Assembly: GCA_019747905.1 (NCBI GenBank)
Contig: JAIEQG010000034.1
Coordinates: 1-64,000 of the forward strand
Reading direction: 5' to 3'
DNA: 64,000 bases
Source: Burkholderiales bacterium
Lineage (GTDB): Bacteria > Pseudomonadota > Gammaproteobacteria > Burkholderiales > Ga0077523
The position numbers were made by a program, and so were the translations under genes. Below, one piece after another: positions 7,746 through 62,153 of this stretch. Below the pieces are notes generated by a model. The model was not told the origin of the DNA, made no database searches, and saw only the letters and a list, made by a program, of their open reading frames with translations. The first letter of the stretch is position 1, and the number at the start of each line of letters is the position of its first letter.

Positions 7746-8567
7746 TCAGTCCTGAAGTCTTGCGGAATGGGTGTAGACGGTCTGGCGCCCTTCGCGGGCG
7801 AAGCCCACGAGCGTGACACCAGCGGCCTCTGCCTGGCGGATGGCCAGCGCGGTCGGTGCGGAAACGGCTGCGATCATCGGGATGCCGGCGACCGCGGTCT
7901 TGTGCACCATTTCGTAGCTCGCCCGGCTGGTGACGACGACGAATCCGCAGCGCGCATCGATCGCGGCGCGCTGTAAGGCGCCGATCAACTTGTCCAGAGC
8001 GTTGTGCCGGCCCACGTCTTCGCGGAGGAAACGCACGTTGCCTTCGGCGTCGGCCCAAGCGGCTGCATGCACGGCACCGGTGAGCAGATTGAGTTGTTGC
8101 CCGCCGGACAGTGCGGCGATGGCCTTCTGCAACGCTGCCACCGATACGACGCCATCGTGAGCGACGGCCGGTGCCGGACGCAGCGCATTTTCCAGCATCT
8201 GCTCGCCGCAGAGGCCGCAGCCGGTGCGGCCGGCGAGGCTCTTGTGGCGCTTCGCCAGGGCAGCGGACCGCGCCTTGGGCACGCTGACGTAGACCGAGTA
8301 GCCATTGGCCTCGGGAACGACTTCGACGCCGCCGAACTCGCTGGCCGATTCGATCACGCCTTCGGTCAGGCTGAAGCCGACCGCGAAGTCGTCGAGGTCC
8401 AGGGGTGAGGCCAGCATCACCGCGAATGGGACGCCGTTGTAGACGAAGGCAACCGGGGCCTCTTCAGCGACTTCTTCGCGCGCGTGCTCGCGCACGCCAG
8501 CTCGGATGCGGTCGACTTCCACCTCGACATGGGCGGAGCCGAGACTGGCGAGGCCGCGGTCGCTCAT
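7746..8567 (-). CDS. fdhD: Formate dehydrogenase accessory sulfurtransferase FdhD/FdsC
   Basis: A 273-residue FdhD-family protein. It carries the CGLC pair (C117, C120) in RTGCGLCGEQ that passes sulfur to the bis-MGD cofactor, and the nucleotide-binding segment REDVGRHNALDK. It makes FdsA active. ATG 8567 is preferred; an in-frame ATG ten codons earlier (8597) falls inside the nested-hairpin repeat at 8591-8703, so that repeat abuts or contributes to the gene start. It is co-oriented with fdsA and fdsD. Confidence 0.9.
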   Translation of the reverse strand: MSDRGLASLGSAHVEVEVDRIRAGVREHAREEVAEEAPVAFVYNGVPFAVMLASPLDLDDFAVGFSLTEGVIESASEFGGVEVVPEANGYSVYVSVPKARSAALAKRHKSLAGRTGCGLCGEQMLENALRPAPAVAHDGVVSVAALQKAIAALSGGQQLNLLTGAVHAAAWADAEGNVRFLREDVGRHNALDKLIGALQRAAIDARCGFVVVTSRASYEMVHKTAVAGIPMIAAVSAPTALAIRQAEAAGVTLVGFAREGRQTVYTHSARLQD

Positions 8568-8590: not shown

Positions 8591-8703
8591 CCCCCATCCC
8601 AGCCTTCCCCCGGCGAAGCCGGGGGAAGGAGTGCCTGCGCGACCGTGGTCGGCACAGGACACTCCTTCCCCTATCACCGATGGGGGAAGGCCGGGATGGG
8701 GGC
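8591..8703. repeat. Nested-hairpin repeat, copy 1
   Basis: The outer arms CCCCCATCCCAGCCTTCCCC and the matching end GGGGGAAGGCCGGGATGGGGG are inverted. Each arm is itself a hairpin: the left is CCTTCCCCC-GGC-GAA-GCC-GGGGGAAGG, the right is CCTTCCCCTATC-ACC-GATGGGGGAAGG. It lies between fdsA and fdhD within the operon. Three more copies are at 11619, 45016 and 61277. Confidence 0.85.
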
Positions 8704-8725: not shown

Positions 8726-11581
8726 CTAAGCCTGCGTCGTCTCCCGCGCCTCCTCGAGCAGCTCTTCCTGCTGTTCGGTGAAGGTGCGGAAGCGCTTCTG
8801 CCATTCCGACGGCTGCGTCACCGGCTCGACCTGTACCGCCGTGACCTTGTATTCGGGGCAGTTGGTGGCCCAGTCGGAGTTCTCCGTGGTGATGACGTTC
8901 GCGCCCGATTCGGGGAAATGGAACGTGGTGTAGACCACACCCGGCTGCACGCGCTCGGTGATCAAGGCGCGCAGGACGGTTTCACCTGCGCGGCTGCTCA
9001 CACCGACCCAGTCGCCCGTCTTGACGCCGCGCAGCTCCGCGTCGCTCGGATGGATCTCGAGGCGATCCTCGTCGTGCCACATGGAGTTGAACGTCCGGCG
9101 CGTCTGCGCGCCCACGTTGTACTGGCTCAGGATGCGGCCGGTGGTAAGGATCAGCGGGTACTTCCGCGAAGTACGCTCTTCGGTCGGTACGTACTCGGTG
9201 ATCAGGAAACGCCCCTTGCCGCGCACGAACTCGTCGACGTGCATGACCGGCGTGCCGACCGGATGCTGGTCATTGCAGGGCCACTGGATGCTGCCCAGCT
9301 CGTCCAGCTTCGCGTAGCTCACGCCGGTGAACGTGGGCGTCAGGCGTGCGATCTCGTCCATGATCTCGGACGGATGCTTGTACGGCATGGGATAGCCCAG
9401 CGCCTCGGCGAGCATCGCGGTGATTTCCCAGTCCTCCTTGCCCGACAGGGACGGCATCACCTTGCGTACCGGCGAAATGCGGCGCTCGGCGTTGGTGAAC
9501 GTGCCGTTCTTCTCCAGGAAGGACGAGCCCGGCAGGAACACGTGGGCGTACTTGGCCGTTTCGTTGAGGAACAGATCCTGCACCACCACGCACTCCATGG
9601 CCTCGAGCGCAGCGGTAACGTGCTGCGTGCCGGGGTCCGATTGCGCGATGTCCTCGCCTTCGACGTAGATGCCGCGGAAGCTGCCGTCGATGGCGGCATC
9701 GAGCATGTTGGGGATGCGCAGGCCCGGTTCGGATTCCAGCTTCACGCCCCAGTTCTGCTCGAACAGGGTGCGCGTTGCGGTGTCGGATACGTGGCGATAG
9801 CCGGGCAGTTCGTGCGGGAAGGAGCCCATGTCGCAGGCGCCCTGCACGTTGTTCTGGCCGCGCAGCGGGTTCACGCCCACGCCCTCGCGGCCGATGTTGC
9901 CGGTGAGCATCGCCAGGTTCGCGATGCCGATCACCATGGTCGAACCCTGGCTGTGCTCGGTCACGCCCAGGCCGTAGTAGATCGCGGCGTTGCCGCCGGT
10001 GGCATACAAGCGCGCCGCAGCACGCACTTCGGCGGCAGGCACGCCGGTCTCGGCCTCGAGTGCTTCCGGCGAGTTGCGTTCTTCGCTGATGAACGCCTTC
10101 CACTTGGCGTAGTCCTTGGCCTCGCAGCGCTCGGCCACGAATGCCTCGTTGGCCAGGCCTTCCGTGACGATCGTGTGCGCCAGGGCGTTGACGACGGCGA
10201 CGTTGGTGCCGGGACGCAGCTTGAGATGGTGCGACGCTTCGACGTGCGGCGTGCGCACCAGGTCGATGGTGCGCGGATCGACCACGATCAGCTTCGCACC
10301 TTCGCGCAGGCGGCGCTTCATGCGCGACGCGAAGACTGGGTGGCCATCCGTCGGGTTGGCACCGATCACCAGCACCACATCGGTCTTGTCGACCGAGTCG
10401 AAGTCCTGCGTGCCGGCCGACTCGCCGAGGGTTGCCTTGAGGCCGTAGCCGGTCGGCGAATGACACACGCGCGCGCAGGTGTCGACGTTGTTGTTGCCGA
10501 ATGCTGCACGGACCAGTTTCTGGACCAGGTACGTTTCCTCGTTGGTACAGCGCGACGAGGTAATGCCGCCCACTGCGCCACGACCGTACTTGGCCTGGAT
10601 GCGCTTGAACTCGGAAGCGGCGTGAGTGATGGCCTCTTCCCAGGAAACCTGCTTCCAGGGGTCCGAGATCTTGTCGCGGATCATCGGCGTGGTGATGCGG
10701 TCCTTGTGGGTGGCGTAGCCGAACGCGAAGCGGCCCTTCACGCAGGAGTGCCCGTGGTTCGCATGGCCGTCCTTGTTGGGCACCATGCGCACCAGCTCGT
10801 TGCCCTTCATTTCGGCGCGGAAGGAGCAGCCGACGCCGCAATAGGCGCAGGTGGTGATCACGCTGTGCTCGGCCTGACCGAGATCGATGACCGACTTCTC
10901 CATCAGCGTTGCCGTCGGGCACGCCTGCACGCAGGCACCGCAGCTCACACATTCGGAATCCATGAACGCTTCGTTCATGCCGGCGGACACCTTCGATTCG
11001 AAGCCGCGGCTGTCGATGGTGAGCGCGAAGGTGCCTTGCGTTTCCTCGCAGGCACGCACGCAACGCGAACACACGATGCACTTGGACGGGTCGAAGGTGA
11101 AGTACGGGTTCGACGTGTCCTTCTTGAGATCCAGGTGGTTCTCGCCTTCGTAGCCATAGCGCACTTCGCGCAGGCCCACGGCACCGGCCATGTCCTGCAG
11201 CTCGCAGTTGCCGTTGGCGGAGCACGTGAGGCAATCGAGCGGATGATCGGAGATGTAGAGTTCCATCACGCCGCGGCGGATGTCGGCCAACTTCCTCGTC
11301 TGCGTATGCACCACCATGCCGGCGGCCACGGGCGTCGTGCACGAGGCCGGATAGCCCTTGCAACCTTCGATCTCCACCAGGCACAGGCGGCACGAGCCGA
11401 ACGCTTCCAGGCTGTCGGTGGCGCAGAGCTTGGGGATCGAGATGCCCGCCTCCGCCGCCGCGCGCAGCACCGAAGTGCCTTCGGGGACGCTCACCGGAAT
11501 GCCGTCCACTTCGAGATCCACCAGGCGCTCCGAAACGCGCGCGGGGGTACCGAGGTCCTTCCAGCGGATGGTCGAGATCAT
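8726..11581 (-). CDS. fdsA: NAD-dependent formate dehydrogenase alpha (molybdenum) subunit
   Basis: A 951-residue catalytic subunit that oxidises formate to CO2 at a bis-MGD molybdenum centre in the cytoplasm. In order: an N-terminal [2Fe-2S] domain (C53, C64, C67, C81), a His-Cys [4Fe-4S] site (H113, C117, C120, C126), two ferredoxin clusters (C168-C178 and C211-C221), the [4Fe-4S] site of the Mo domain (C245, C248, C252, C280) and the MGD-binding core. The molybdenum ligand is Cys373 in ARVCHSPTG, so this is a cysteine, not selenocysteine, enzyme. A GGAG ribosome site precedes ATG 11581. Nested-hairpin repeats lie on both sides. Confidence 0.96.
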   Translation of the reverse strand: MISTIRWKDLGTPARVSERLVDLEVDGIPVSVPEGTSVLRAAAEAGISIPKLCATDSLEAFGSCRLCLVEIEGCKGYPASCTTPVAAGMVVHTQTRKLADIRRGVMELYISDHPLDCLTCSANGNCELQDMAGAVGLREVRYGYEGENHLDLKKDTSNPYFTFDPSKCIVCSRCVRACEETQGTFALTIDSRGFESKVSAGMNEAFMDSECVSCGACVQACPTATLMEKSVIDLGQAEHSVITTCAYCGVGCSFRAEMKGNELVRMVPNKDGHANHGHSCVKGRFAFGYATHKDRITTPMIRDKISDPWKQVSWEEAITHAASEFKRIQAKYGRGAVGGITSSRCTNEETYLVQKLVRAAFGNNNVDTCARVCHSPTGYGLKATLGESAGTQDFDSVDKTDVVLVIGANPTDGHPVFASRMKRRLREGAKLIVVDPRTIDLVRTPHVEASHHLKLRPGTNVAVVNALAHTIVTEGLANEAFVAERCEAKDYAKWKAFISEERNSPEALEAETGVPAAEVRAAARLYATGGNAAIYYGLGVTEHSQGSTMVIGIANLAMLTGNIGREGVGVNPLRGQNNVQGACDMGSFPHELPGYRHVSDTATRTLFEQNWGVKLESEPGLRIPNMLDAAIDGSFRGIYVEGEDIAQSDPGTQHVTAALEAMECVVVQDLFLNETAKYAHVFLPGSSFLEKNGTFTNAERRISPVRKVMPSLSGKEDWEITAMLAEALGYPMPYKHPSEIMDEIARLTPTFTGVSYAKLDELGSIQWPCNDQHPVGTPVMHVDEFVRGKGRFLITEYVPTEERTSRKYPLILTTGRILSQYNVGAQTRRTFNSMWHDEDRLEIHPSDAELRGVKTGDWVGVSSRAGETVLRALITERVQPGVVYTTFHFPESGANVITTENSDWATNCPEYKVTAVQVEPVTQPSEWQKRFRTFTEQQEELLEEARETTQA

Positions 11582-11618: not shown

Positions 11619-11703
11619 CCCCCATCCTAGCCCTCCCCCGGCAAAGCCGGGGGGGTGTACGCTCCTTCCCCCAGCTGTGCTGGAGGAAGGCTGGGATGGG
11701 GGC
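11619..11703. repeat. Nested-hairpin repeat, copy 2
   Basis: Same architecture as copy 1: the outer arm CCCCCATCC pairs with GGGATGGGGG. The inner hairpins are CCTCCCCCGGC-AAA-GCCGGGGGGG (left, one imperfect pair) and CCTTCCCCCAGC-TGT-GCTGGAGGAAGG (right). It lies between fdsB and fdsA in the operon. Confidence 0.85.
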
Positions 11704-11709
11704 CGCGCT

Positions 11710-13269
11710 TCACGCCGCCACCGCGAGGCCGTCGCGGTCCAAGCCGAAATCTTCCGGGAAATGCTTGAGTGCGCTCAGCACCGGGAACGGCGTCATGCCA
11801 CCCAGCGCGCAGAGCGACCCATGCAGCATCGTATCGCACAGGCTTTCCAGCACCGCCACGTCGGCGCCGACGTCGCGCCCGGCGATGATCTTGTCGATGG
11901 TTTCCACGCCGCGCGTGGAACCGATCCGACAGGGCGTGCACTTGCCGCAGGACTCGATCGCGCAGAACTCCATGGCGTAGCGCGCCATCTTGGCCATGTC
12001 GACCGTGTCGTCGAAGACCACGATGCCGCCGTGGCCCACCATGGCGCCGATGGATGCGAACGCTTCGTAGTCGAGCGGCGTGTCGAACTGCGATTCGGGC
12101 AGGAAAGCGCCGAGCGGGCCACCGACCTGCACCGCCCGGATCGGTCGGCCACTCGCCGACCCGCCGCCATAGTCGTACAGCAGTTCGCGCAGCGGGATGC
12201 CGAAAGCCTTCTCCACCAGGCCGCCGTGCTTGATGTTGCCGGTCAGCTGGATCGGCAGCGTGCCGCGCGAGCGGCCCATGCCGTAGTCGCGATAGAACTC
12301 GGCTCCGCGGTCGAAGATGATCGGCAGCGAAGCGAAGGTGATGACGTTGTTGACCACCGTGGGCTTGCCGAAGAGGCCCGAAATCGCGGGCACCGGCGGC
12401 TTGTAGCGCACCATGCCGCGCTTGCCTTCGAGGCTCTCCAGCAGCGACGTTTCTTCGCCGCAGATGTAGGCCCCGGCGCCGCGGCGCACTTCGAGATCGA
12501 AGCGCTGTCCGGAGCCCAGGACGTCGGCGCCCAGGGCACCGCGTTCATTGGCGATGGCGATCGCGGCAAGCAGCCCGCGCTCGGCATGCGGGTACTCCGA
12601 GCGAACGTAGATGTAGCCTTTGGTGGCCCCCGTGGCGACGCCGGCGATGGCCATGCCCTCGATCAGCACGAACGGATCGCCTTCCATGGTCATGCGATCG
12701 GAGAACGTGCCGGAGTCGCCTTCGTCGGCGTTGCACACGATGTACTTCTGGTCGGCCGCAGTTTCGAGCACCGTCTTCCACTTGATGCCGGTGGGGAACG
12801 CGGCGCCGCCCCGGCCACGCAGACCGGATGTGGTGACCGCCGCGACAGCGTCGCTGCGCTTCATCGCGATGGCGTTGCGCAGTCCGCGCCAGCCTCCGAG
12901 TGCCGCGTAGTCGTCGTACGAAAGCGGGTCGATGACGCCCATGCGCGCGAAACAGAGCCGTTCCTGGCGCGCGAGGTAAGGATGGCTGTCGACTTTGCCG
13001 ATCGACTTGGGATGCGCCTTGCCTTCGAGGAACCCGGCGTCGAACAGGCTCGCGACGTCTGCGGTAGCGATGGACCCGTAGCCGATGCGCCCGCTCGGTG
13101 TTTCCACTTCCACCAGCGGCTCCAGCCACATCATCCCGCGGGAGCCATTGCGCACGATCGTGACGCTGTCGCCGCGACGGGCAGCCTCGGCGCCGATGGC
13201 GCGGGCAACGCCTTCCGCCCCCAGGCTCAGTGCGGAGGAATCGCGCGGGACGTAGACCTTGACGCTCAT
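11710..13269 (-). CDS. fdsB: NAD-dependent formate dehydrogenase beta (NADH/FMN) subunit
   Basis: A 519-residue NuoF-like subunit that takes electrons from FdsA through a [4Fe-4S] cluster to FMN and NAD. An N-terminal thioredoxin-like domain (1-80) has lost its cluster cysteines, as is usual in FdsB. The FMN/NADH site is [13 protein letters not shown] (149-161) and the cluster site is [13 protein letters not shown] with the distant CALGG cysteine. Its start overlaps the fdsG stop by four bases, so the two are coupled. Repeat copy 2 separates it from fdsA. Confidence 0.96.
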
Positions 13270-17910: not shown

Positions 17911-18025
17911 CCGGGTCTCCTCCCCATCTTGTCTTGTAGTGCGACCTCAACCGTCTTCCAAGATACACCGGCGGGCCAGGCGCCCCAGCCACGCTGCGCG
18001 CTGCCCCGTCATGGCCGGCAGCATC

Positions 18026-27410: not shown

Positions 27411-27573
27411 GGGGGCTAGGGGCTAGGGGATAGGGACTAGGGACTAGGGGCTAGGGGCTAGGGGCTGGGGAGCGAGACGAGTCTTCGGAGTCGCGGAGCC
27501 AGAATGCGGACCGGGCGATGGGGTTTCACTCGCGAGATCCCTAGCCCCTGCCTTTCCCTAGTCCCTAGCCCCT
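27411..27573. repeat. Heptamer tandem array with inverted partner
   Basis: Bases 27411-27470 are built of about eight degenerate 7-base units (GGGGCTA, GGGGATA, GGGACTA). Bases 27538-27573 hold the reverse-complement units (CCCTAGC, CCCTAGT). A 67-base unique spacer lies between. The two blocks can pair as a long hairpin, or the G-rich strand could form a quadruplex. It lies between sdhA and sdhB in the operon. Confidence 0.85.
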
Positions 27574-44009: not shown

Positions 44010-44101
44010 GAGGGTTCGCGTCCACGCGGACCCGGCAGCGACCCGCGATGGGCCGCTGCGGTCGTACTGTCGTTCAACTCGCACCCCGGAAGGATTTCGT
44101 C

Positions 44102-44944
44102 ATGGTGTTTATCAAGTCCGCGGCCATCGCCGTGCTCAGCGTGGTTGGCGTGGCGGCACTGTCCGCCTGCAATGCCCAGGAAACCGGCAAGAACATGGCC
44201 GTCGTCAACGGCGTGCCCATTCCGCAGGCGCGCATGGATTTCGTGGTGAAGATGCAGCAGGCGCAGGGTCAGAAGGATTCGGAAGACATGCGCAAGCAGT
44301 TGCGCGAGGCGCTCATCACGCGCGAGATCGTGACGCAGGAAGCGGTGAAGAAGGGGCTCGACAAGAACGTCGATTACCAGACGCAGATGGACCTCGCCAA
44401 GCAGCAGGTGCTGGTCAATGCGTTCATCGAGGACTATCTCAAGTCCCACGAACCGACCGAGGCCGAACTGAAGGCCGAGTACGAGGCCGTCAAGAAGGAA
44501 CAGTTCGACGTGAACGCCAAGGAGTACAAGGCGCGCCACATCCTCATCAAGACGCCGACCAAGGATGATCCGAAGGCCGCTGCCGCCGCGAAGAAGAAGG
44601 CCGAGTCCATCCTGGCGCAGCTCGAGAAGGGCGGAAAGTTCGACGAACTGGCGAAGAAGAATTCGGACGACGCCGGCTCCAAGGCCAAGGGCGGTGAACT
44701 CGACTGGACCGACGGCAGCAATCTCGTGAAGCCGTTCGCCGATGCGATGAAGACACTGTCGAAGGGGCAGACCTCGAAGCTGGTGCAGACCCAATACGGC
44801 TATCACATCATCCGTGTCGACGACGTGCGCGACCCGCAGTTCCCGCCGTTCGAGCAGGTCAAGGACGAAGTCGCGAAGCAGCTGATCGGCAAGCAGCGCG
44901 ACAAGGTGATCGAGGATCTGAGGAAGTCGGCGAAGGTGGAGTAA
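44102..44944 (+). CDS. Lipoprotein parvulin-type peptidyl-prolyl isomerase
   Basis: A 280-residue PpiC-type isomerase. A signal peptide with the lipobox LSA-C23 anchors it in the envelope. A SurA-like N-terminal helical region precedes the parvulin domain (about 140-240: KARHILIKTPTKDD, GGKFDELAKKNSDD, GGELDW, QYGYHIIRVDD). It probably helps fold outer-membrane or periplasmic proteins. GGAAGG precedes ATG 44102. A strong terminator follows. Confidence 0.9.
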   Translation: MVFIKSAAIAVLSVVGVAALSACNAQETGKNMAVVNGVPIPQARMDFVVKMQQAQGQKDSEDMRKQLREALITREIVTQEAVKKGLDKNVDYQTQMDLAKQQVLVNAFIEDYLKSHEPTEAELKAEYEAVKKEQFDVNAKEYKARHILIKTPTKDDPKAAAAAKKKAESILAQLEKGGKFDELAKKNSDDAGSKAKGGELDWTDGSNLVKPFADAMKTLSKGQTSKLVQTQYGYHIIRVDDVRDPQFPPFEQVKDEVAKQLIGKQRDKVIEDLRKSAKVE

Positions 44945-45003: not shown

Positions 45004-45015
45004 TGGTTGCTCTCG

Positions 45016-45115
45016 CCCCATCCCGGCCTTCCCCCGGCGAAGCCGGGGGAAGGGGTGTACGTCTATCTGTACGTTCCCTCCCCCAGCTTTGCTGGGGGAG
45101 GGTCAGGGTGGGGGC
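45016..45115. repeat. Nested-hairpin repeat, copy 3
   Basis: Outer arms CCCCATCCCGGCC and TCAGGGTGGGGGC. Left hairpin CCTTCCCCC-GGC-GAA-GCC-GGGGGAAGG, right hairpin CCCTCCCCCAGC-TTT-GCTGGGGGAGGG. In the right arm the CCCT/AGGG pair replaces CCTT/AAGG of other copies, a compensatory change. Lies between the convergent parvulin and purL genes. Confidence 0.85.
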
Positions 45116-45124
45116 AAGGCAGCC

Positions 45125-48100
45125 TTACCCCACATACCTCCGCGCATTCCTGAACATCCGCATCCACGGCGAATCCTCGCCCCACTCCCGCGGATGCCAT
45201 GAAAGCTGCGTCGTGCGGAACACGCGCTCCGGATGCGGCATCACGATGGTGAAGCGTCCGTCGGCGTTGGTGAGCCCGGTAAGCCCGTCCGGCGAACCGT
45301 TCGGGTTGGCCGGATAGCGCTCGGACGGCTGGCCACGGTTGTCGACGAAGCGCAGTGCCGTATGGCGCTTGGCCGTTGCACGGGCAGCAGCCGAAGCGAA
45401 CTCCGCCCTCCCCTCCCCGTGCGACACGACGACGGGTATGCGGCTGCCGACCATGCCGTCGAAGAACAGCGAGGGGCTTTTCGTGACTTCGACCAGCACC
45501 AGGCGCGCCTCGAACTGCTCCGAGGCGTTGCGCACGAAATGCGGCCAGTGCGCGGCACCCGGGACGAGCTCGCGCAGATTGCTCATCATCTGGCAGCCGT
45601 TGCACACGCCGAGCGCGAAGGTGTCGCTGCGGTGGAAGAACGCTTCGAACTGTTCGCGCGCCCGGGCATTGAACAGGATCGACTTCGCCCAGCCCTCGCC
45701 CGCCCCCAGCACGTCGCCGTAGGAGAAGCCGCCGCATGCCGCGAAACCGCGAAAGCCTTCGAGACTCACGCGGCCCGCGATGATGTCGCTCATGTGCACG
45801 TCGACCGCTTCGAAGCCCGCACGGTCGAAGGCCGCGGCCATCTCGATCTGGCCATTCACGCCCTGTTCGCGCAGGATGGCCACGCGCGGACGCGCGCCCT
45901 TCGCAATGACCGGTGCATCCTGCGGGTCGAAGGTGAGTTGCGCGTGGAGACCCGGATCGGCGACATCATCGATGGCCCCGAATTCCTGGTCGGCGCAGGC
46001 AGGGTTGTCGCGCAGCCGCGCGATCCCGTGGCTGGTGGATGACCATTCGCGCAGCATTGCCACGCCGGATTCCGCGAGCACTTCGCGGTTGCCGGCCGTG
46101 ACGCGCAGGAATCCGTCCTGGGCGATGGTGCCGAGGTCGTGCACGCAGTCGCCGAGCCCGACATCCTCGAAGGCTCCGCGTGCCAGCGGCACCAGGCCTG
46201 CGCGCACCTGGACGACGGCACCCAGTTCCTCGCTGAACAAAGCAGCGACCGGGTCACCCAAGCCGTCGATGCCTACGTTGAGGCCAACGTGAGACGCGAA
46301 CATCATCTCCGCCAAGGTCACGATGAGGCCGCCATCGGAGCGGTCGTGATAGGCGAGCAGTATGCCCTCGGCGATCAGAGCCTGGACCGCACTGAAGAAT
46401 GCACGCAGACGCTGCGGATCTTCGATATCCGGAGCGCCCGTTCCGGTCTGGCCGTAGACCTGCGCCAGAACGGAGCCGCCCAGACGGTTGCGGCCGCGCG
46501 CGAGATCGATCAGCAGCAGGCGCGTTTCGCCCGCATCGAGCCGCAATTCCGGTGTCAGCGTATCGCGCACGTCCTCGACGCGCGCGAATGCCGACACGAT
46601 CAGCGACAGCGGTGCCGTGACTTCCTTGCGTTCCGCGCCGTCCTGCCAGGCCGTGCGCATCGACAGGCTGTCCTTGCCGACCGGTATGCTCACGCCGAGT
46701 GCCGGGCAGAAGTCCATGCCTACGGCCTTGACGGTGTCGAACAGGGCGGCGTCCTCGCCGGGCTGGCCTGCAGCGGCCATCCAGTTGGCGGAGAGCTTCA
46801 CCCGCTCGATGGGGCCGATGCGCGCGGCGGCGATGTTGGTCAGCGCTTCGCCCACGGCCATCCGGCCCGATGCCGGACCGTCGATCACCGCGATCGGCGT
46901 GCGCTCGCCCATGGCCATCGCTTCGCCCAGATTGGTGTCGAAGCCGAAACTGGTCACCGCGACATCCGCCACGGGTACCTGCCACGGCCCGACCATCTGA
47001 TCGCGCGCGGTGAGGCCGCCCACGGTGCGATCACCGATGGTGATGAGGAACTGCTTGCCGGCGACTGCCGGAAAACGTAGCACTCGCTGCAGTGCTTCCG
47101 CGAGCTTCACCTTCCCGGTGTCGAACGGACGCACCTTGGCAACGGTCCGGTGCACGTCGCGCAGCATCTTCGGCGGCTTGCCGAGCAGCACGTTGAGGTC
47201 CATGTCCACCGGCCGGTTGTCGAAGCGCGGATCCTCGACGATCAACCGTTCCTCGCCGGTAGCCTTTCCCACGACGGCGAACGGACAGCGCTCGCGCTCG
47301 CACAACGCCGTGAAGACCGGGACCTTCGCCGGATCCAGCGCGAGCACATAGCGCTCCTGCGATTCGTTGCACCAGATCTGCAGCGGCGACATGCCGGGCG
47401 CTTCGGAAGGAATCGCCCGCAGGTCGAAGCGTGCTCCGCGTTCGCCGCCGTGTACCAGCTCGGGCAGCGCATTCGACAGTCCACCGGCACCCACGTCGTG
47501 GATCGAAAGTATCGGGTTGCTGCTACCCAGCGCCGCGCAGCGATCGATGACTTCCTGGCAGCGGCGCTGCATCTCGGCATTGCCGCGTTGCACGGAATCG
47601 AAATCCAGGTCTTCGGTGTTGGCACCGGTGTCCATGCTGGACGCCGCACCGCCGCCCAGTCCGATCGGCATGCCCGGGCCGCCCAGTTGCACCAGCACTG
47701 CGCCTTCCGGCAATGCGTGCTTGTGCGACTGGTTCGCCGCGATGTTGCCGAGCCCGCCGGCGATCATGATCGGCTTGTGATAGCCGCGCGCACGGCCGCC
47801 AACCATCTGCTCGTAGGTGCGGAAGTAACCCGTCAGATTCGGGCGACCGAATTCGTTGTTGAAGGACGCCCCGCCGATCGGCCCTTCGATCATGATCGTC
47901 AGTGGCGCTGCAATGCGCCCCGGACGGCCGTAATCCTCCTGCTCCCAAGGTTGCACGGCGCCCGGGATGCGCAGGTGCGACGTGGTGAAACCGGTGAGGC
48001 CCGCCTTCGGTTTCGCGCCGCGTCCGGTAGCCCCTTCGTCGCGAATCTCGCCGCCGGAACCGGTCGCCGCTCCCGGATAGGGCGCGATGGCCGTCGGGTG

Positions 48101-48985
48101 ATTGTGCGTCTCGACCTTCATCAGGATGTGGGTCGGTTCGTCCACGCGGCGATACACACCGGCCCCGTCCGGGCGAAAGCGGGGGACCAGATCACCTTCC
48201 ATCACGGCAGCGTTGTCCGAATACGCCACGATGGTGTGCTCGGGGTGCTGCGCGTGGGTGTTGCGGATCATCCCGAACAGCGACTTCTCCTGCCGCTGCC
48301 CGTCGACGATCCAGTCGGCGTTGAAGATCTTGTGGCGGCAGTGCTCCGAGTTCGCCTGCGCGAACATCATCAGTTCCACGTCGGTCGGATTGCGGCCGGC
48401 GGCCGCGAACGCCTCGTACAGATAATCGATCTCGTCGGCCGACAGCGCCAGGCCCATGTCGACATTGGCCGTCTCGAGGGCGGCCTTGCCGCCGCCGACC
48501 ACGTCGATCCGGTCGAAGGTAATGGGGTCCACCTCGCGGAACAGACGCTCGGCGGCGTCGACCGTATCGAAGACCGTCTCGGTCATGCGGTCGTGCAGCG
48601 GACCCGCGAGGTTCTGCCGCCCGGCACTGCCACCGCTTACGTGGTAGACAACACCGCGTTCGATGCGCTCTACCGCTTCCAGGCCGCAGTGGTGGGCGAT
48701 ATCCGTGGCCTTGGACGACCAGGGCGAGATGGTGCCCAGGCGCGGCACGACGACGAACAGTTGCCCATCGACCTTCTTCGCACGCTCGTGCGGCCCGTAC
48801 TCGAGGATGCGGTCGAGTCGCGCCGACTCGTCCGCACCGAGGGGGCGATGGAGCTTGACGAAGTGCCAGTACTCGGCGGAGATCCCGGCGACGTTCGGGT
48901 CGAGCGAGCGCAGGGTCGAGAGGAGTTTCCGGAGGCGAAACGCCGACAGCGCGTCGCGTCCTTGCAGCTTCAGAAAGAGCGCCAT
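45125..48985 (-). CDS. purL: Phosphoribosylformylglycinamidine synthase
   Basis: A 1286-residue single-chain FGAM synthase, the large form of beta- and gammaproteobacteria. It makes formylglycinamidine ribonucleotide in purine synthesis. It has an N-terminal PurS-like domain, duplicated ATP-grasp-like AIRS domains, and a C-terminal glutaminase with the Cys nucleophile in [10 protein letters not shown] and the His-Pro-Glu segment PHPERVFR. The shared 102-base gap with nnr is a divergent promoter region. Confidence 0.96.
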
Positions 48986-51028: not shown

Positions 51029-51802
51029 TCAAGGCCGTCCGAAGCCGTACCGCTCGAGAATGCGCTGCGCGGCCTCAGTGCGCAGGAATCGCACGAACGC
51101 CGCAGCACCTTCGGGATTGCCGCTGCCCTTGACGACCGCTGCCGGGTACAGCACCGGCGTTTCGGTCTTGGTCACCAGGGCGATCTTCGCGCGGTTCACG
51201 GCAGCGATGGCATCGGTGCGATAGACGAAAGCCGCATCGACCTCGCCGCGCGCGACGTAATCCAGGGCCTGGCGCACGTTCTGGGTGAACACGAACCGCT
51301 CCTGCAGGTCCGGCCACAGGCGCGCGGTGTTCAGAAAATCGCGTGCGTACTTGCCTGCCGGCACCGAATCCGGGTTGCCGATCGCGATCCGCTTGACTTC
51401 CGGACCGGTGATGTCGACCAGCCGGTTCAGCACGAGCAAACTGGTGGCAGGCACGGCGACCACCAGTTCATTGCGAGCGAAGACGACGCGCGACTCGCCG
51501 GTGACGACGCCCTGTTTCGCGGCCCGGTCCATGGTCTCGAGGTCGGCCGAGGCGAAGACGTCCACGGGCGCTCCCGCGACGATCTGTTGCAGCAGTTGGC
51601 CGGACGCGCCAAAGTTGAGCACCACCTTCGTTGCGGACTGGGCACGCTCGAAGGCTGCACCGATCTCCTTGAAGGCATCGGTCAGGCTGACCGCCGCGCT
51701 CACCGTAAGCTCGGCAGCGAACGATGCAGCGCTGCCGATCGCCAGAGCCCCGAACAGGAGCCCGGCAAGAATGCTTCGACGCATGCGGTTGCAGCCCGTC
51801 AT
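51029..51802 (-). CDS. modA: Molybdate-binding periplasmic protein ModA (copy 1)
   Basis: A 257-residue binding protein with a signal peptide and the ModA pattern SAAVSLTDAFKEIGAAFE, NFGASGQLLQQIVAGAPVDVFASAD, IAIGNPDSVPAGKYA and QNVRQALDYVARGEVDAAFVY. The start at 51802 overlaps the stop of the second modA copy (ATGA); ATG 51784 is an alternative. About half the residues match the neighbouring copy by eye. It is the last mod gene before crcB. Confidence 0.92.
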   Translation of the reverse strand: MTGCNRMRRSILAGLLFGALAIGSAASFAAELTVSAAVSLTDAFKEIGAAFERAQSATKVVLNFGASGQLLQQIVAGAPVDVFASADLETMDRAAKQGVVTGESRVVFARNELVVAVPATSLLVLNRLVDITGPEVKRIAIGNPDSVPAGKYARDFLNTARLWPDLQERFVFTQNVRQALDYVARGEVDAAFVYRTDAIAAVNRAKIALVTKTETPVLYPAAVVKGSGNPEGAAAFVRFLRTEAAQRILERYGFGRP

Positions 51803-52560
51803 GGTTTCAGGAATCCGTAGCGTGCAAGAATCCGTTGCGCCGTCTCGGTCTTCAGGAATTCGACGAAGGCAAGCCCGCCGCGCTGGTTGCCGCCTCCGCG
51901 CGTGGCAGCCACCGGATAGAGAATGTTCGCCGGGACGTCCACCTTGAAGGCCACCTTGACCCGGGCCGGGAGGAGGCGTGCGTCCGTCGCGTACACGAAC
52001 CCGGCATCCGCCTCGCCGCGCACCACATAGTCGAGGGCCTGGCGCACGTTCTGGGTATTGATCATCTTCTCCTTGAGCACGTCCCACAGGGCGCCCTTGT
52101 CGAGGGCGAGCTTGGCGTAGCGACCGGCGGGTACCGAATCCGGATTGCCGATCGCGATGCGGGCGAAGGCCGATCCCTTGAGGTCTGCCAGGCCGGATGC
52201 GCCGGCCGCGGAATCGGCGGGTACCACCACCACCATCTCGTTGCGCACGAAGTTGAACCGGGAGGCCCGTTCGATCGCACCGCCTTTTTCAGCGCGGTCC
52301 ATGCTCTCCTGGTCGGCTGCGGCGAATGCGTCCACGGGTGCCCCGCGCGTGATCTGCTGGACGAGCTGCCCCGACGAGCCGAAATTGAAGAGGATCTTCG
52401 ACCCCGGGTTCGCGGCTTCGAACTCGCGGCCGATGTCCTGGAACGCGTTCGTGAGACTCGCGGCCGCCGACACCGTGATGTCGGCGGCCCATGCGGACGG
52501 CGCACCGGCAGACACCAGACACAGGGCGAGAGCGCATTTTCGAATGAAGGAGGTGTTCAT
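51799..52560 (-). CDS. modA: Molybdate-binding periplasmic protein ModA (copy 2)
   Basis: A 253-residue ModA with a signal peptide ending AWA-A (residues 1-25), SAAASLTNAFQDIG, NFGSSGQLVQQITRGAPVDAF, IAIGNPDSVPAGRYAK and ARYGFLKP at the end. It follows the porin by one base and is coupled to copy 1. The two copies share the ligand loops and are a tandem duplication. Confidence 0.92.
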   Translation of the reverse strand: MNTSFIRKCALALCLVSAGAPSAWAADITVSAAASLTNAFQDIGREFEAANPGSKILFNFGSSGQLVQQITRGAPVDAFAAADQESMDRAEKGGAIERASRFNFVRNEMVVVVPADSAAGASGLADLKGSAFARIAIGNPDSVPAGRYAKLALDKGALWDVLKEKMINTQNVRQALDYVVRGEADAGFVYATDARLLPARVKVAFKVDVPANILYPVAATRGGGNQRGGLAFVEFLKTETAQRILARYGFLKP

Positions 52561-59987: not shown

Positions 59988-61262
59988 ATGAGCGCAGCCC
60001 CGACATCACTGAAAGACTTGGCCGCCGCCGACGACTACGACCCGAATTCGATGCCGGTCGCCAAGGCGCGCAGCCACATCCGCGCGTTCCTGACGCCGAT
60101 CAGCACGGTCGAGCGTGTCGCGGTGCGCAGCGCGCTCGGCCGCATCCTCGCCGAGGACATCGTCTCGCCCATCAACGTCCCGGGCCACGACAACTCGGCG
60201 ATGGACGGCTACGCGGTGCGCCACGCCGACCTGAAGGCCGATGCCGACGTCACCCTCGAAGTGATCGGCACCTCGTTCGCTGGCAAACCCTATCTGGGCG
60301 CGGTCCGCAGCGGCATGGCCGTGCGCATCATGACCGGTGCGGTCATCCCGCCCGATTGCGACACCGTGATTCCCCAGGAACGCGCCAAGGCCGCGGACGG
60401 CAAGGTCACGCTGGGTACCGGGGTCCGCAAGGGACAGAACGCGCGGTACGCCGGCGAGGATCTCAAGATCGGTCAGGTGGCGTTGCAGCGCGGTCAGCCG
60501 GTACGGCCGGCGGAGCTGGGGCTCATCGCTTCGCTCGGCATCGGCGAAGTCGCGGTCTATCGCCGGTTGCGCGTCGCTTTCTTTTCCACCGGCGACGAAC
60601 TGGTGGGGATCGGCGGGTCGCTCGGGCCGGGACAGATCTTCGATTCGAACCGCTACACGCTCTTCGGCATGTTGACCGACCTCGGTTGCGAAGTCATCGA
60701 CATGGGCGTGATCCGCGACACCCCGGAGGCCGTCGAAGCTGCGTTCGTGCAGGCAGCCGCTGCCGCCGACGTGGTCATGACGAGCGGCGGCGTTTCGGTG
60801 GGCGACGCCGACTACGTGAAGCAGATGCTCGACCGGCTCGGCGAAGTGCTGTTCTGGAAGATCGCGATGAAGCCCGGACGGCCGCTCGCCTTCGGCAAGA
60901 TCGGTGCGGCGCATTTCTTCGGGCTGCCCGGCAATCCTGTGGCCGTGATGGTGACCTTCTACCAGTTCGTGCGCGAGGCGCTGCAGATCCTGATGGGTCA
61001 GACCGCGACACCGCTGGTGCCGACGTTCCAGGCGGTGCTGTCGGCGCCGCTCAAGAAGGCACCGGGGCGTACCGAATTCCAGCGCGGCATCCTCAGCGCC
61101 GGCCCGGACGGGCGCTGGAGTGTCCGCGTCACCGGCGATCAGGGCTCGGGCATCCTGTCGTCGATGAGCCAGGCAAACTGCTTCGTGGTGCTGTCGGACG
61201 GTACCGGCAACCTCGACGCAGGCGCGTTGGTCGACGTTCAGGCTTTCGAGGGCGTGCTTTAG
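59988..61262 (+). CDS. moeA: Molybdopterin molybdotransferase MoeA
   Basis: A 424-residue MoeA of normal length that inserts molybdate into adenylated molybdopterin. Motifs: PGHDNSAMDGYAVR, the central Mo-binding domain with STGDELV, SGGVSVGDADYVK and FGLPGNPVAVMVTF, and a C-terminal beta-barrel. Follows moaA; nested-hairpin repeat copy 4 is just downstream. Confidence 0.94.
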   Translation: MSAAPTSLKDLAAADDYDPNSMPVAKARSHIRAFLTPISTVERVAVRSALGRILAEDIVSPINVPGHDNSAMDGYAVRHADLKADADVTLEVIGTSFAGKPYLGAVRSGMAVRIMTGAVIPPDCDTVIPQERAKAADGKVTLGTGVRKGQNARYAGEDLKIGQVALQRGQPVRPAELGLIASLGIGEVAVYRRLRVAFFSTGDELVGIGGSLGPGQIFDSNRYTLFGMLTDLGCEVIDMGVIRDTPEAVEAAFVQAAAAADVVMTSGGVSVGDADYVKQMLDRLGEVLFWKIAMKPGRPLAFGKIGAAHFFGLPGNPVAVMVTFYQFVREALQILMGQTATPLVPTFQAVLSAPLKKAPGRTEFQRGILSAGPDGRWSVRVTGDQGSGILSSMSQANCFVVLSDGTGNLDAGALVDVQAFEGVL

Positions 61263-61276
61263 CGGTACGCCCACGG

Positions 61277-61366
61277 CCCCCATCCCAACCTTCCCCCAGC
61301 GAAGCTGGGGGAAGGAGCCGTACACCCCTTCCCCCACCGTTGGTGGGGGAAGGCTGGGATGGGGGC
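61277..61366. repeat. Nested-hairpin repeat, copy 4
   Basis: Outer arms CCCCCATCCCAACC and GGGATGGGGG. Left hairpin CCTTCCCCC-AGC-GAA-GCT-GGGGGAAGG: AGC/GCT replaces GGC/GCC of copies 1 and 3, a compensatory change. Right hairpin CCTTCCCCCACC-GTT-GGTGGGGGAAGG. Lies between convergent moeA and the membrane hydroxylase-like gene. Confidence 0.85.
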
Positions 61367-61391: not shown

Positions 61392-62153
61392 TCAAGCCAC
61401 CTGATGCGACTCGCGCTCGCGGAGCCGCTCGACACTGACCCGCACCTCCGGCTTGAGATGCTTCTCGCTGTACCCGTTGAAGATGTGCCCGAGGAGGCCG
61501 CGGTCGAGATCGCTCGTGCCCATGAACCAGTCCGCGATGGGAAACGTGAGGTTCATGTTCCGTTCCATCATCAGGCCCTGGTTGTGGTGCGCGGTGTGAT
61601 GACGGCGGATGGTGTTCACGAACGGCATGGTGCGCACGAACCAGTTCTCGTGCACGTGACAGCAGTAGTGGAAGGTCTCGTAGATCAGGTACTGGCCGAC
61701 GATGGTGACCATCAGGATGTAGCCGGCGTTGGGGTTGATGGCCCAGCCCAGTGCCAGGGCGAACGGCACGCCGAAAGCCATGAAGGTCAAGAGTGCGCGC
61801 CAGGGAAAGAAGATGATGCGGAATTCGCGCGTGGAATCCACCGTCATCTCGTTGCTGGTGAAGTACTGGTGATGCTGGCGCGTGTGCCGATCGTAGATGG
61901 CGCGCAGCGCGAACACGTCCACCAGCCGGTGCATCACGTACTTGTGGATCCACCATTCGAACCAGTTGGAGAAGGCGAATACCGGAATGACGAGCAGCCA
62001 TTCCCAGGTGGCGTCCTGCATGCGGCTCACGCACCACGCGATGGCGGCGATCCCGACGCCGTACATCACGCCGATGTGCACGAGCCCGTTGTACCAGGGG
62101 CTGATCTGCGCCTGGTATTCCTCGCGGAAGCGGCGCTGGCGTTCGGTCATCAT
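61392..62153 (-). CDS. Sterol desaturase / fatty acid hydroxylase superfamily protein
   Basis: A 253-residue membrane protein with the di-iron histidine motifs HKYVMH (70-75), HTRQHH (90-95), HYCCHVH (162-168) and HHTAHH (185-190). About four hydrophobic segments. Members hydroxylate or desaturate lipids; the substrate is unknown. It lies 19 bases after the stop of the binding-protein gene at 62173-63327 and may share its transcript. Confidence 0.86.
   Translation of the reverse strand: MMTERQRRFREEYQAQISPWYNGLVHIGVMYGVGIAAIAWCVSRMQDATWEWLLVIPVFAFSNWFEWWIHKYVMHRLVDVFALRAIYDRHTRQHHQYFTSNEMTVDSTREFRIIFFPWRALLTFMAFGVPFALALGWAINPNAGYILMVTIVGQYLIYETFHYCCHVHENWFVRTMPFVNTIRRHHTAHHNQGLMMERNMNLTFPIADWFMGTSDLDRGLLGHIFNGYSEKHLKPEVRVSVERLRERESHQVA

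Follow-up and report, generated by a model that had tools for sequence, protein, structure and literature searches.

The four copies in the window and their neighbours

Four copies of one repeat lie in the window, i.e. the whole stretch of 64,000 nucleotides analysed here, at 8591-8702, 11619-11702, 45015-45114 and 61277-61365. A sequence-only reading had pointed out all four, and all were found where it placed them, far above chance: the core CCCCCATCCYRRCC has 362 exact matches in the genome while its reversed control has 0. The copies have a common design, in which each is an inverted pair of 39-nt units, and the units fall into two types, A and B.

8591-8629, minus strand: left unit of copy 1, type A (third strand 8591-8599, hinge 8600-8602, hairpin 8603-8629)
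8664-8702, plus strand: right unit of copy 1, type A with a single stem mismatch (hairpin 8664-8690, hinge 8691-8693, third strand 8694-8702)
11619-11657, minus strand: left unit of copy 2, damaged (stem of type B, third strand of type A)
11664-11702, plus strand: right unit of copy 2, type A
45015-45053, minus strand: left unit of copy 3, type A, with G instead of C as its first base
45076-45114, plus strand: right unit of copy 3, type B
61277-61315, minus strand: left unit of copy 4, type A
61327-61365, plus strand: right unit of copy 4, type A

Copy 1, whose units are separated by a spacer of 34 nt (8630-8663), is flanked by fdhD (7746-8567, minus strand) and a formate dehydrogenase alpha gene (8726-11581, minus strand). 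Copy 2 lies between the latter gene and a NuoF-like gene (11710-13269, minus strand); its left stem is damaged, and it is the only copy in the genome that combines a type-B stem with a type-A third strand. The other two copies sit between convergent genes. Copy 3 is an A/B heterodimer with a spacer of 22 nt, located between a rotamase gene (44048-44944, plus strand) and a purL-like gene (45125-48985, minus strand), and copy 4, with a spacer of 11 nt, is located between moeA (59988-61262, plus strand) and a gene of the fatty acid hydroxylase family (61392-62153, minus strand).

A family of several hundred paired units

The four hairpin elements of the window are members of a paired-repeat family with several hundred copies. 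Since the units have a fixed length, they could be aligned and counted directly. Using exact patterns we found at least 542 intact half-units in the 4.9-Mb genome, 357 of type A and 185 of type B, and the 21-nt sequence CCCCCATCCCRRCCTTCCCCC has 343 matches. A generic triplex-unit finder detected 175 units, while the reversed control yielded 2; this search, like our cluster counts, covers 1.63 Mb or about a third of the genome.

Each unit starts with a hairpin whose 9-bp stem has a pyrimidine and a purine strand, followed by a hinge of 3 nt and a purine-rich tail of 9 nt that mirrors the purine strand of the stem. The loop has 9 nt in 139 of the 175 units and contains a covarying 3-bp stem of its own. 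Type A has the layout CCTTCCCCC-loop-GGGGGAAGG-hinge-GGATGGGGG, and type B has CCCTCCCCC / GGGGGAGGG / GGGTGGGGG. All parts of a class II triplex are present and in the required order, from the pyrimidine side of the stem through its purine side to the mirrored third strand of purines. In the 1.63 Mb, most units form inverted doublets with the tails outward and a spacer of 10-11 nt, and solo units also exist. The copies are mainly intergenic and keep away from divergent promoters. Tandem arrays were observed with periods of 91, 114 and 233 bases. Contigs 10, 36, 46, 47, 55, 62 and 64 of this genome (G000) often end within element arrays, and many copies are at contig ends, suggesting that the repeats probably break the assembly and that the copy number is underestimated.

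Pairing in the inner hairpins and the outer arms

The sequence-only reading drew each copy as two inner hairpins nested within outer inverted arms, with the differences among the copies falling in pairs. Our data agree with the inner part of this drawing. Over 38 doublets, pairing in the inner hairpins is 99.1% compared to 91.6% after shuffling, and their covariation score is 0.257 compared to 0.111, with 0 of 500 shuffles reaching the observed value. Both paired differences that had been named are two-sided changes: GGC/GCC versus AGC/GCT falls in the loop-proximal stem, where base pairs of the GC, AU and CG types are seen, and CCTT/AAGG versus CCCT/AGGG in the main stem. The random, unpaired variation that would speak against a selected stem was not found genome-wide for the inner stems.

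The outer arms, however, are 84.9% paired compared to 86.8% after shuffling, and every one of the 500 shuffles does at least as well. Since the arms pair less than shuffled ones, a selected helix is not what they form. Each outer arm is rather the mirror of the purine strand of its own hairpin. The idea of selection on the folded form is supported, but not with the hairpins enclosed by paired arms. This mirror relationship also makes an RNA fold unlikely, while a purine-motif DNA triplex fits it. A scan of the window against Rfam gave zero matches at the gathering score.

Stem and third strand change together

The switch from type A to type B replaces T-A·A by C-G·G at stem position 3, with all three letters changing jointly. 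Exact counts of the purine stem and the third strand across the whole genome give 357 A, 185 B and 3 mixed units. Across 27 genomes, 1554 units have a stem matching the third strand and 25 are mixed, the copy at 11619 in the window being among the latter. All nine triads match in 142 of the 165 units in this genome, while shuffling the third strands among the units gives a mean of 72 and a maximum of 94. For loci retrieved from other genera with type-A patterns, the match is complete in 251 of 273 units, with a shuffled mean of 108. T-A·A or T-A·T was found to substitute for C-G·G at positions 1, 3, 4, 5, 6, 7 and 9, and the other genera show switches at 1, 6, 7 and 9 as well; one triad variant in Pantoea and Enterobacter is TCCTCCCCC/GGGGGAGGA/AGGTGGGGG, and a further one in other genera is CCCTCTCCC/GGGAGAGGG/GGGTGAGGG.

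To our knowledge, no copying process makes a mirror repeat, and strand copying does not, so either selection on the triads or the exchange of complete units is the natural reading. If types A and B are two subfamilies of long standing, as they may be, the coupling at position 3 within the genome may reflect few independent events. The triad changes at the other positions are the stronger evidence, though their numbers are smaller. Such changes of letters in matched threes across genera provide evolutionary evidence for the third strand that is independent of probing.

Doublets prefer one A and one B unit

The doublets strongly prefer to combine one A unit with one B unit. In this genome, 47 of the 59 doublets are A/B heterodimers, compared to an expected 28.8, and 0 of 5000 shuffles reach the observed number. 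We also counted the doublets holding an A unit in other genera, using the loci with a design other than that of this genome, and observed 71 with an A and a non-A unit and 5 with two A units. The genera, as given by the record labels, include Variovorax, Comamonas, Ramlibacter, Sideroxydans, Pantoea, Enterobacter, Azospirillum, Lysobacter and Deefgea. Neighbouring pairs are arranged tail to tail in 62 of 94 cases in other genera, and with the stems inside in 56 of 73 cases here. Among doublets with long spacers, like-with-like pairs are more frequent (Fisher p = 0.027, in a comparison chosen post hoc). At the loci L138, L165 and L192 from Pantoea and Enterobacter, type A is paired with a third type that has T-A·A at position 1, i.e. 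TCCTCCCCC/GGGGGAGGA/AGGTGGGGG or AGGAGGGGG.

Distribution and turnover

The expansion is very large and is confined to a few species. Type A was found in 26 of the 300 genomes and 20 of the 134 genera of the order, with 1-22 copies per genome outside the genus. Three species of the genus have hundreds of copies. By exact patterns, one of the nine other congeners has 14 type-B units, one has a single type-A unit and the rest have none; the first of these (G004), with zero type-A units, is an apparent exception to the A/B pairing. A congener record labelled Betaproteobacteria bacterium Ga0077523 (locus L190) shows 86-90% identity over 7.2 kb.

Each of the two expanded relatives carries the element at both formate dehydrogenase sites, and it is absent from the 11619 site in the more distant congeners aligned. 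One orthologous site has the order B-A here and A-B in a relative, with a comparable switch at the 11619 site. No clean empty sites were seen in the comparison with two congeners; the sites are mostly occupied in both, or their flanks are too diverged. At positions 17970-18014 of locus L317 in genome G001, a doublet has lost its interior and one hairpin is left, while the doublet between the same flanks is whole in G000.

Relation to known repeats

We place the element with the triplex repeats of the BoxC/PIT/TM_ECO kind, as what its sequence suggests to be a lineage-specific expansion with its own triads, loop and doublet geometry. They have in common the class II Y-R-R order with a 9-nt stem, a 3-nt hinge and a 9-nt third strand (PMC4666352), the hinge variants TTA and CCG, the intergenic location, the frequent inverted pairs of two types and the high copy number in some relatives only. 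The exact TM_ECO pattern CCCTCNCCC N3-6 GGGNGAGGG N3 GGGNGAGGG, with up to 1 mismatch allowed, is not matched by the element. Compared to TM_ECO, the triad at position 3 is T-A·A in type A, T-A·A is missing from position 6 in both types, and the 9-nt loop, which encloses a covarying 3-bp stem, exceeds the published range of 3-6 nt. Since type A differs at several positions of the stem and the third strand and has the 9-nt loop, we consider it to be of the same kind but not TM_ECO itself. The 542 intact A and B units here also compare with 143 in the richest TM_ECO genome.

The doublets differ as well. Their stems lie inside, whereas BoxC units are tail to tail at the single E. coli locus examined, i.e. 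the hrpB-mrcB site, which is the best match in all five strains compared. All five pairs in E. coli K-12 combine two types that differ in the hinge (Holder et al. 2015, PMC4666352), whereas the difference between A and B sits in the triads and not in the hinge alone. Oligonucleotides of the BoxC type form triplexes in vitro as observed by CD and NMR, in vivo DMS footprinting in E. coli gave no support for a stable triplex, and variability is raised around the E. coli copies (PMC4666352). The BoxC fold has been seen in vitro and not in cells (PMC4666352), which leaves room for doubt about whether triplex DNA matters in living bacteria.

Two other groups of repeats have some likeness to the element. 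REP, REPIN and BIME elements also consist of short palindromic units in inverted doublets and clusters, with hundreds of intergenic copies (PMC2817692, PMC3116915), but the element here has no link to a REP-associated tyrosine transposase (RAYT) and no GTAG tag, and its third strand is coupled to the stem. The GTAG- and CGTC-tagged palindromic repeats are likewise high-copy and intergenic (PMC3733652), but these tags are absent from nearly all stem feet here, with GTAG in 2 and CGTC in 13 of the 175 units.

Proposed mechanism

Our analysis suggests that the copies are probably triplex repeats made of Y-R-R units, which have gone through an expansion of the BoxC/PIT/TM_ECO kind and spread without a RAYT. 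Exposed as a single strand in replication or repair, a unit would fold back on itself twice to give an intrastrand DNA triplex of the purine-motif class II (Y-R-R) kind, and each DNA strand of a doublet would carry one unit in the folding orientation. We infer that such triplexes form in cells; long Watson-Crick hairpins spanning whole doublets, for which very high stability is predicted, would be their competitors. The folded unit would most likely affect replication or repair, and stalled replication, template switching and recombination, not a RAYT, may be what spreads the copies and drives their turnover. Like-with-like doublets would be near-perfect palindromes and hence prone to deletion, and avoidance of such palindromes might perhaps explain why A/B heterodimers are favoured, as the higher frequency of like-with-like pairs among long-spacer doublets faintly suggests.

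We speculate, more tentatively, that the A/B heterodimer of triplex-forming ends could be the true unit of a widespread proteobacterial class. Such a class could be kept across the alpha-, beta- and gammaproteobacteria by selection on the triads in single-stranded DNA, and could increase in number, with no RAYT, through replication-coupled copying or a triplex-reading factor. The A/B preference and the RAYT-free expansion lead to testable questions, i.e. what copies the repeats and why the unlike halves stay together.

Alternative explanations

An alternative hypothesis, which we consider unlikely, could be that the A/B doublet is a MITE-like element moved by a putative enzyme recognising two different ends. 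The A/B asymmetry does resemble distinct left and right ends, the ends are inverted, and the doublets are dispersed and expanded in some species of a genus only. However, no target-site duplication was detected in 79 doublets, as direct repeats in the flanks are not above the shuffled level and no flanking bases are fixed beyond the first base C, and solo units and both doublet geometries occur. One doublet used as the query had no match in the plasmid and phage collections (BLAST with the low-complexity filter on), and no candidate enzyme was found.

We give little credence to the element acting as RNA, as a bidirectional terminator or a stabiliser of mRNA 3' ends, although its placement could be taken that way. 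The clusters are largely intergenic, with 75 of 89 outside the called genes, and their stable hairpins come soon after genes, at a median of 36 nt past the upstream stop. Convergent gaps are enriched (22 of the 65 classified clusters versus 18% of the background gaps) and divergent gaps are depleted (1 of 65 versus 20%), though the gene calls come from a simple GC3 script and individual placements may be inaccurate. On the other hand, an RNA hairpin has no use for a third strand mirroring the stem, and the unit order shows no bias with respect to the direction of transcription (10 AB, 10 BA). Several copies are inside apparent operons, e.g. that of the formate dehydrogenase genes, the copies in the window have no Rfam match, and BoxC showed no terminator activity (PMC4666352).

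A REP/REPIN family spread by a RAYT is largely refuted, and we regard it as very improbable. The sequence-only reading had suggested REP-like mobility, and its part on high-copy dispersal stands: short hairpin units form inverted doublets and BIME-like arrays in hundreds of intergenic copies, and this genome does have one Y1_Tnp gene. The link to a RAYT does not stand, as our search found none linked to the element in the genome, the genus or the 27 carrier genomes. Specifically, G001 has one Y1_Tnp gene and G005 has none, and none of the 48 Y1_Tnp loci, that of this genome included, has an A/B element within 1.5 kb. Eight of the 27 carrier genomes have no Y1_Tnp gene at all, including G064 (a single contig, called 100% complete) and G005 (243 A units). 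In addition, the GTAG tag is nearly absent, and a mirrored third strand is not part of what REP models predict. Finally, selection on a cruciform, or on a long hairpin that the outer arms would close, which is how the copies were first drawn, is scarcely credible despite the strong predicted folds of whole doublets, as it is contradicted by the pair counts, with the arms pairing less than shuffled ones, and by the avoidance of like-with-like pairing.

Other observations

Triplex-like units of other sequence are present near a few Y1_Tnp loci, including the one in this genome. At positions 33-76 of locus L031, a BoxC-type triplex unit, CCCCTCTCC/GGAGAGGGG/GGGGTGAGG, shares the locus with a Y1_Tnp gene, indicating that several triplex types coexist in the genome. 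At positions 309-917 of the same locus (contig 159 of G000), two adjacent small ORFs adjoin the only Y1_Tnp gene and may encode a toxin-antitoxin pair, i.e. a ParE/RelE-like protein and a partner, judging by eye from the translations.

Two further features were seen in the window. Positions 27412-27474 hold a tandem array of about 9 heptamers, GGGGCTA or GGGACTA, which is G-rich and has a telomere-like look. Two segments, 51222-51421 and 51992-52191, resemble each other at 71-73% across a distance of 770 bases, which suggests that a gene was duplicated in tandem.
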